The notes beneath the pieces are model-generated. The model was not told where the DNA came from, ran no database searches, and worked only from the letters and a program-made list of their open reading frames with translations. The position numbers and the translations under genes are program-made. Of a stretch of DNA of 53,699 bases, positions 34,579 to 36,297 are shown one piece after another. The number at the start of each line of letters is the position of its first letter. The first letter of the stretch is position 1. The stretch spans positions 1 through 53,699 of the forward strand of contig JAFGHO010000050.1 of the NCBI GenBank assembly GCA_016930085.1, written 5' to 3'. The stretch is from Spirochaetales bacterium. Lineage in GTDB: Bacteria > Spirochaetota > Spirochaetia > SZUA-6 > JAFGRV01.

Positions 34579-34668
34579 TCGGTACTGATTATATCCTGGT
34601 TATGTTTTCCTGTTCCAGGAAATAATAACATTATGCATCTATTGAATAGTAACTGGAGGAACATGTGT

Positions 34669-34959
34669 ATGGAGATTACTGATGTTAAAATCAAGAAGGT
34701 GGTTTCGGACGGGAAACTGAAAGCATATGTCTCATTGACCTTCGATGATTGCTTTGTCGTTCATAATCTCAAGATTATTGAAGGAAAGGGAGGAATTTTC
34801 GTTGCGATGCCGAATCGGAAAACGAAAAAGGGTGAGTTCAAGGATATTGCTCATCCCATCAATTCCGATTGCAGGAGTTCTATACAAAATCGAATACTCT
34901 CCGAGTATGAAAAGGTAAAAGATCAGGATATCGAAACTGTGGAAGCAGATGAAGAATGA
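34669..34959 (+). CDS. spoVG: SpoVG family nucleic-acid-binding regulator
   Basis: A 96-residue protein starting MEITDVKIKKVVSDGKLKAY, with the family's VHNLKIIEGKGGIFVAMPNR and FKDIAHPIN. Spirochaetal SpoVG (Borrelia) is a site-specific DNA/RNA-binding regulator. ATG 34669 lies 8 bases after GGAGGA; the nearer ATG 34663 would be only 2 bases away. Its stop is 8 bases before tRNA-Gln, so both are probably on one transcript. Confidence 0.95.
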   Translation: MEITDVKIKKVVSDGKLKAYVSLTFDDCFVVHNLKIIEGKGGIFVAMPNRKTKKGEFKDIAHPINSDCRSSIQNRILSEYEKVKDQDIETVEADEE

Positions 34960-34967
34960 ATAAAGAT

Positions 34968-35040
34968 TGGGACGTCGGCAAGCGGTAAGCCACCGGTTTT
35001 TGGTACCGGCATTTCGCAGGTTCGAATCCTGCCGTCCCAG
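34968..35040 (+). tRNA. tRNA-Gln (anticodon TTG)
   Basis: Acceptor TGGGACG pairs with CGTCCCA (U1-A72, typical of tRNA-Gln). The D-arm is GGC/GCC. The anticodon stem CCGGT/ACCGG encloses TTTTGGT with TTG at 34-36. The T-arm is GCAGG-TTCGAAT-CCTGC and the discriminator is G. CCA is not encoded. It lies between spoVG and rplY, with 8 and about 50 bases on either side and no promoter of its own that I can see. Confidence 0.96.
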
Positions 35041-35089
35041 TAATCTATAAGAATAAGAATGAAAAGATTATCGAATAAGGAGCTTTACT

Positions 35090-35719
35090 ATGGAGCAAAG
35101 AACGTTACAGGGGATTGAACGTAAAAATCTGAAAAAGGGATATACCCGGGAACTCAGAAGAAAAGGTAAAATACCGGCTGTTATCTACGGACATAGCGAC
35201 CCCAGAGCCATTGCCGTTGACGGGCATGAGTTTAACTCGAAATTCAAGGTGATTTCGGAGAATATCATTATTAAATTGATGGTTGACGGTCATGTATATT
35301 CAGTTCTGGTAAAGGATTTTCAGGAGGACATTGTCACCGAGGAAATCCTGCATCTCGATTTCTTTGAGATAGAAAAAGGGAAGCACCTGAAAACACATGT
35401 ACCGATTCACACCCATGGAACGCCGATGGGCGTGAAGGAGGGTGGAATCTTCGAGTTGCTTGTCCATGAGATTGAGGTCGAATGTCTTCCGAAAGATCTC
35501 CCGGAAGACATTGCCATCGATGTCACCAACCTCATCCTCGGCCATTCGATACATGTCCGCGACCTTCCCGAAATTACGGACGTCCGTTTTTTAAACGCGC
35601 CGGATCAGGTAGTATGTACGGTCGCGCGCAAACGTGAGGTGAAGGAAGTCGAAGTAGAAGAAGAGGCGATCGGGGAAGAAGCTGAAGCGGCGGCAGAGGA
35701 GCAGCCGGAGGAGGAATAA
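35090..35719 (+). CDS. rplY: 50S ribosomal protein L25, general stress (CTC) form
   Basis: A 5S-rRNA-binding protein with two domains, 209 residues. The N-terminal L25 domain has RELRRKGKIPAVIYGHSDPR and LVKDFQEDIVTEEILHLDFF. The C-terminal TL5 domain has VPIHTHGTPMGVKEGG and LEVECLPKDLP-like VECLPKDLPEDI. A run of Glu and Ala forms an acidic tail (EVEVEEEAIGEEAEAAAEEQ). AAGGAG precedes the ATG. The end of the gene provides the ribosome site for pth. Confidence 0.96.
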   Translation: MEQRTLQGIERKNLKKGYTRELRRKGKIPAVIYGHSDPRAIAVDGHEFNSKFKVISENIIIKLMVDGHVYSVLVKDFQEDIVTEEILHLDFFEIEKGKHLKTHVPIHTHGTPMGVKEGGIFELLVHEIEVECLPKDLPEDIAIDVTNLILGHSIHVRDLPEITDVRFLNAPDQVVCTVARKREVKEVEVEEEAIGEEAEAAAEEQPEEE

Positions 35720-36297
35720 TTCTGCCACTGGTTGTTATCGGGCTGGGGAATCCCGGCAAAACCTATATGAAAACCCGGCACAATGTCGGATTTCAGACGG
35801 TCGATACGCTTGCCGAGAAAATCGGCGTGAAACTGAAGAAACTCGTATTCAAGTCCTACATCAGGGCAAAAGGCGTATATCACGGCAGGGAGATCGTCCT
35901 TGTCAAACCGCTGACGTTTATGAACAGGTCCGGCATAATCTTGGGTGACGTGCTTCGCTACGCCCGGGCGTCGATTGACGATATTGTGGTCGTGTGTGAC
36001 AACCTCGATCTCGAACCGGGTATCTGCAGGTTCAGACTGAAGGGTTCTTCCGCAGGCAACAAGGGACTCGCTTCGTTGATCGACCACGCGGGAACCCGGG
36101 ATTTCAAGCGTCTGTATATCGGCATCGGGCGTCCCCCTTTTCGCGGCGACGTTATACGTTATGTACTTGGCGTTCCCGGAAAGGAAGATCGAACCCGTAT
36201 AGCCGCTTCGATCAGGTGTGCCTCGGAAGGCATCCTCATGCTTTTGGAGAAAAGCCCGGAAGAAGTGATGAACAGTGTCAACGGCGGCGAGAGGTGA
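35719..36297 (+). CDS. pth: Peptidyl-tRNA hydrolase, probable ATT (or CTG) start
   Basis: Releases peptides from peptidyl-tRNA that has dropped off ribosomes. The family N-terminus is present in frame: PLVVIGLGNPGKTYMKTRHNVGF, here begun by ATT 35719 or CTG 35722. No ATG, GTG or TTG exists in this frame between the rplY stop and codon 35767. Starting at ATG 35767 would delete the GNPG strand and its essential Asn. GGAGG (35707-35711) lies at good distance from ATT 35719, which overlaps the rplY stop. Other motifs: catalytic His in TRHNVGF, LTFMNRSG, VVCDNLDLEPG and SAGNKGLASLI. The stop overlaps tilS (GTGA). Confidence 0.92.
   Translation: MLPLVVIGLGNPGKTYMKTRHNVGFQTVDTLAEKIGVKLKKLVFKSYIRAKGVYHGREIVLVKPLTFMNRSGIILGDVLRYARASIDDIVVVCDNLDLEPGICRFRLKGSSAGNKGLASLIDHAGTRDFKRLYIGIGRPPFRGDVIRYVLGVPGKEDRTRIAASIRCASEGILMLLEKSPEEVMNSVNGGER

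Follow-up and report, generated by a model that had tools for sequence, protein, structure and literature searches.

A CTG codon next to the rplY stop is the probable start of pth and is conserved across much of a spirochaete class

We find that the gene for peptidyl-tRNA hydrolase (pth) in a contig of 53,699 nucleotides from a Spirochaetales bacterium (the whole stretch of DNA analysed, hereafter the window) very probably starts, on the evidence of conservation in the order and in the class, at a CTG codon (35722..35724, plus strand) located 2 nt past the stop codon of rplY, the gene for ribosomal protein L25/Ctc. We regard the junction as a variant, found class-wide, of a known feature, namely a conserved non-canonical start at a tight gene junction, and it seems fairly likely that the CTG start of pth goes together with translational coupling to rplY.

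In the window the gene order is tRNA-Gln, rplY, pth, tilS and ftsH, an arrangement that suggests the class Spirochaetia. The rplY open reading frame (35090..35719, plus strand) runs from an ATG start to a TAA stop (35717-35719) and is assigned by PF01386, PF14693 and TIGR00731; pth (35722..36297, plus strand, TGA stop at 36295-36297) lies directly 3' of rplY and out of frame with it. The tRNA-Gln gene (anticodon TTG, 34967-35041) is situated between a small open reading frame (34633-34959) and rplY. On the other side of pth, tilS probably starts, judging from sequence and frame, at a GTG (36294..36296, plus strand) that overlaps the pth stop (GTGA), forming an adjoining junction that is also tight but has an ordinary start codon.

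The identity of the enzyme is clear, as the predicted protein exceeds the curated cut-offs of both peptidyl-tRNA hydrolase family models at full length (PF01195, 182.2 bits against a cut-off of 27, profile positions 1-183 of 183; TIGR00447, 163.5 bits against a cut-off of 100). Because the Pfam and NCBIfam Pth models begin to match at residue 5 of a translation started at ATT 35719, the N-terminus is genuine coding sequence, and solved Pth structures align from residue 3 of the same translation. The pth-frame codons ahead of the GLGNPG motif are GGA GGA ATA (35716) ATT (35719) CTG (35722) CCA CTG (35728) GTT GTT ATC GGG. Our search for ATG, GTG or TTG in this frame upstream of the first Pth strand gave none; the first such codon is the ATG at 35767, behind that strand, and no canonical start gives the complete conserved N-terminus. 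This in-frame reading, together with the conservation of CTG described below, bears out the original prediction, made from the letters of the window, that pth lacks a canonical start before 35767 and has a non-canonical one linked to the end of rplY. Pth is generally essential in bacteria, and no PF01195 gene other than this pth was found in the assembly (96% complete); the enzyme therefore appears to depend on a non-canonical start in this organism. A scan of genome contigs gave two distant matches and no others.

To identify the start codon, the rplY-pth junction was compared in the available genomes of the window's order (n = 25), with the start column defined as the sixth codon ahead of the first G of GLGN. 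CTG occupies this column in 19 of the 25 genomes and ATG in three; in one more genome, L022, the CTG is displaced by one codon towards GLGN, which makes L022 the 20th CTG genome of the order, and the remaining two genomes (G016 and G020, family f3) gave no clear call. As CTG also codes for leucine, we tested the start column at the nucleotide level. All leucine codons in it are CTG (19/19), whereas Pth columns with leucine in all 25 sequences contain mixed synonymous codons with CTG in only 6-11 of 25 (Fisher test of the start column against four such all-leucine columns, ~4e-8, phylogeny uncorrected). The rare codon itself is kept across relatives, and because it is CTG and not ATT that is kept at the nucleotide level in independent relatives, chance is disfavoured as an explanation of the junction. 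In G002, which belongs to the same genus as the CTG-using G004, the rplY stop lies 64 nt from pth and an ATG is found at the exact position of the CTG, and two f3 genomes with rplY-pth gaps of 39 and 46 nt likewise have ATG at this position. A strict link between the start codon and the distance from rplY holds inside the order but fails across the class.

The comparison was then widened to the class, with 103 pth genes linked to rplY, in most cases one for each genus, from 39 families. CTG starts 43 of them, ATG 24 and TTG or GTG 13, with no clear call for the remaining 23, and CTG-started pth occurs in 18 of the 39 families. A Pth tree, with weak support at many of its forks, requires a minimum of 12 switches between CTG and canonical starts and shows clear clustering of the two; the CTG start thus seems to be ancient in the class and to have been swapped with ATG repeatedly. 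Among 20 loci sampled in the other classes of the phylum we saw no CTG start, and those that were read have ATG, TTG or GTG. As for rplY itself, almost every locus of the class has an ATG or GTG start, and CTG was sought there and not seen. An unlinked second pth of the class starts with ATG in 22 and with TTG in two of 24 loci by our own reading, and never with CTG; this second, divergent gene is found away from rplY, with ATG, in many genomes of the class (L051-L079). At several loci (L090, L095, L097, L111, L091/L143, L116 and L132) neither ATG, GTG, TTG nor CTG is sensibly placed before pth, and ACG, ATC or ATA starts, starts within rplY, or fusions are possible there. In another class, many f53 genomes have two tandem pth-like genes ~90 nt apart (L168 (G496), G480, G464 and G459).

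The CTG in the window is preceded by a Shine-Dalgarno sequence, GGAGGAGG (35707..35714, plus strand), that lies within the last rplY codons, ends 7 nt before the CTG and is predicted to pair with the anti-Shine-Dalgarno at -11.4 kcal/mol. The usual layout of the junction in the order is GAG GAG TAA NNN CTG. At the second-last rplY codon, 19 of the 20 CTG genomes of the order have GAG and none has GAA, in contrast to positions further upstream in the rplY tail, at which GAA (68) outnumbers GAG (42). GAG at this codon preserves a GAGGA core, with the Shine-Dalgarno about 6 nt upstream of the CTG; judged from such sequence patterns, the upstream Shine-Dalgarno signal is also under selection. Median Shine-Dalgarno pairing is -7.8 kcal/mol for CTG starts versus -3.6 kcal/mol for ATG starts (Mann-Whitney p ~1e-6, phylogeny uncorrected), a comparison that is not fully independent of the start calls since these relied on the distance to GLGN and, in a supporting role, on the Shine-Dalgarno itself. 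The stronger Shine-Dalgarno at CTG starts fits the reported trend of weaker starts toward compensation by stronger Shine-Dalgarno sequences (PMC5622118).

With only a few nt from stop to start and the Shine-Dalgarno inside rplY, the locus has the layout of a coupled gene pair. Between the rplY stop and the CTG the window has 2 nt, and 35 of 42 CTG loci have 0-4 nt. At some loci the CTG is found 9-23 nt past the rplY stop, with a Shine-Dalgarno of its own, and at others in the wider class an ATG start is just as near to rplY as the CTG ones; because distant CTG starts and close ATG starts both occur, tight coupling is neither strictly needed nor sufficient for CTG.

The sequences show the start position, its conservation at the nucleotide level, the conserved Shine-Dalgarno and the tight spacing; coupling, low output and sensitivity to IF3 are our inference. 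We propose that GGAGGAGG, carried by the closing codons of rplY, would position the ribosome for the CTG: a ribosome that ends L25 would remain at the junction, retained by the Shine-Dalgarno, and the same ribosome would re-initiate with fMet-tRNA on the weak CUG, and Pth output would thereby be low and track the translation of L25. Free 30S subunits with IF3, on the other hand, would seldom initiate at the pth CUG. IF3 represses GTC and AUU starts (PMC5472188), and by analogy an IF3-dependent tuning of the pth CUG is plausible. More tentative, and on balance unlikely, is the extended reading of a class-wide pth CUG start that operates mainly by L25 re-initiation and is filtered by IF3, with the rarer ACG, ATC and ATA used at the junction in sister genomes. 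Two other candidates were rejected. An altered initiator tRNA finds no match with the single CAG-loop pattern used in the search, and the one initiator-type tRNA found has the normal anticodon CAU. An RNA hairpin masking the CTG is present in the fold of the window, but this fold is no better than shuffles (z -1.12); median predicted start accessibility is 0.35 at CTG loci versus 0.63 at ATG loci, with composition uncontrolled.

Alternatively, the CTG could chiefly act as a sensor of initiation fidelity that IF3 represses, such that Pth rises when IF3 is limiting, in the manner of infC with ATT and Streptomyces sigR with GTC, and the coupling to rplY is secondary. We regard this as improbable: IF3 does repress non-canonical starts in both E. 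coli and Streptomyces (PMC5472188), Pth functions in translation and CTG is retained though ATG is only one change away, but a Shine-Dalgarno this strong looks like a means of offsetting a weak codon, and infC, in the genome of the window, appears to start with TTG.

Far less probable is a start at ATT (35719..35721, plus strand), overlapping the rplY stop, which the original prediction had preferred while naming ATT or CTG as the start. ATT is a known rare start and one of two overlapping GGAGG copies (35707-35711) lies 7 nt upstream of it, in agreement with the predicted good placement of the GGAGG in the rplY tail, but GGAGGAGG would suit ATT or CTG about equally, and CTG rather than ATT is favoured because CTG is conserved. 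At the ATT position relatives have CAT, TAT, CTC, TTT, GCC and others, varying even inside the family; the codon that follows is always CTG or ATG. Thus, of the two codons named, comparison of the junction in relatives, as had been proposed, upholds CTG and not ATT, with ATG in 3/25, and the predicted overlap gives way to a start that begins 2 nt after the TAA.

We give even less credence to the absence of a separate pth start, with stop readthrough or frameshifting at the end of rplY producing an L25-Pth fusion. In many relatives rplY and pth do share a reading frame, and only one codon separates the stop from the CTG, yet the phase varies (the genes are out of frame in the window, L022, L027, L084 and L096), and a fusion would neither demand CTG over other leucine codons nor explain ATG in the same place. 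It is equally hard to credit an error in the sequence, or true initiation at the ATG (35767..35769, plus strand) with a shortened Pth, for although the assembly consists of 135 contigs and is probably a metagenome bin, and although this ATG is the first canonical start in the pth frame, the same CTG recurs in many independent genomes (including the single-contig genome G025), and the ATG, located behind GLGNPGKTY, is not conserved and would cost the first strand, GLGNPG and the conserved Asn.

CUG accounts for ~0.024% of annotated bacterial starts, its output in E. coli is ~0.86% of that of AUG (PMC9845219, PMC11497404 for both), and of 61,358 ancestral AUG starts a change to CUG was reconstructed for only 2 (PMC5622118). 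The CTG starts annotated so far in bacteria are scattered and share the codon with pth; what differs in pth is that CTG is kept at one orthologous gene over much of a class. Our search of the open-access literature found no CUG-started pth or rplY-pth start, and a description may exist elsewhere. Ordinary coupled pairs, whose stop and start overlap or abut, resemble rplY-pth in this spacing of a few nt and in a Shine-Dalgarno located in the upstream gene, but usually start with ATG, GTG or TTG. Like pth, infC (ATT in E. coli, ATC in Streptomyces) is a translation gene with a conserved near-cognate start and a good Shine-Dalgarno; it differs in codon and gene, and its autoregulation by IF3 has been demonstrated (as cited in PMC5472188), whereas pth, at the tight rplY-pth junction, is known from sequence. 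The infC of the genome of the window (L170) has an apparent TTG start behind AAGGAGG, not an ATT of the E. coli type. Streptomyces sigR (GTC; PMC5472188) also has a conserved rare start that gene finders miss, shares its operon with a tightly coupled gene and is IF3-sensitive in experiments (PMC5472188); unlike in pth, the codon is GTC and not CTG, and it opens the upstream gene, whereas in pth the rare codon opens the downstream one.

At this one housekeeping gene, a codon that is very poor in E. coli has been retained across a class with matching selection on the Shine-Dalgarno. This suggests that the pth start annotations in many such genomes need checking, because gene-finding programs as a rule expect ATG, GTG or TTG. 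The junction also opens to testing whether near-cognate starts are regulatory and whether re-initiating ribosomes are able to use codons that free subunits refuse. If pth is indeed translated by L25 re-initiation and filtered by IF3, then the enzyme that rescues dropped peptidyl-tRNA would be set by ribosomal-protein synthesis and by the fidelity of initiation.
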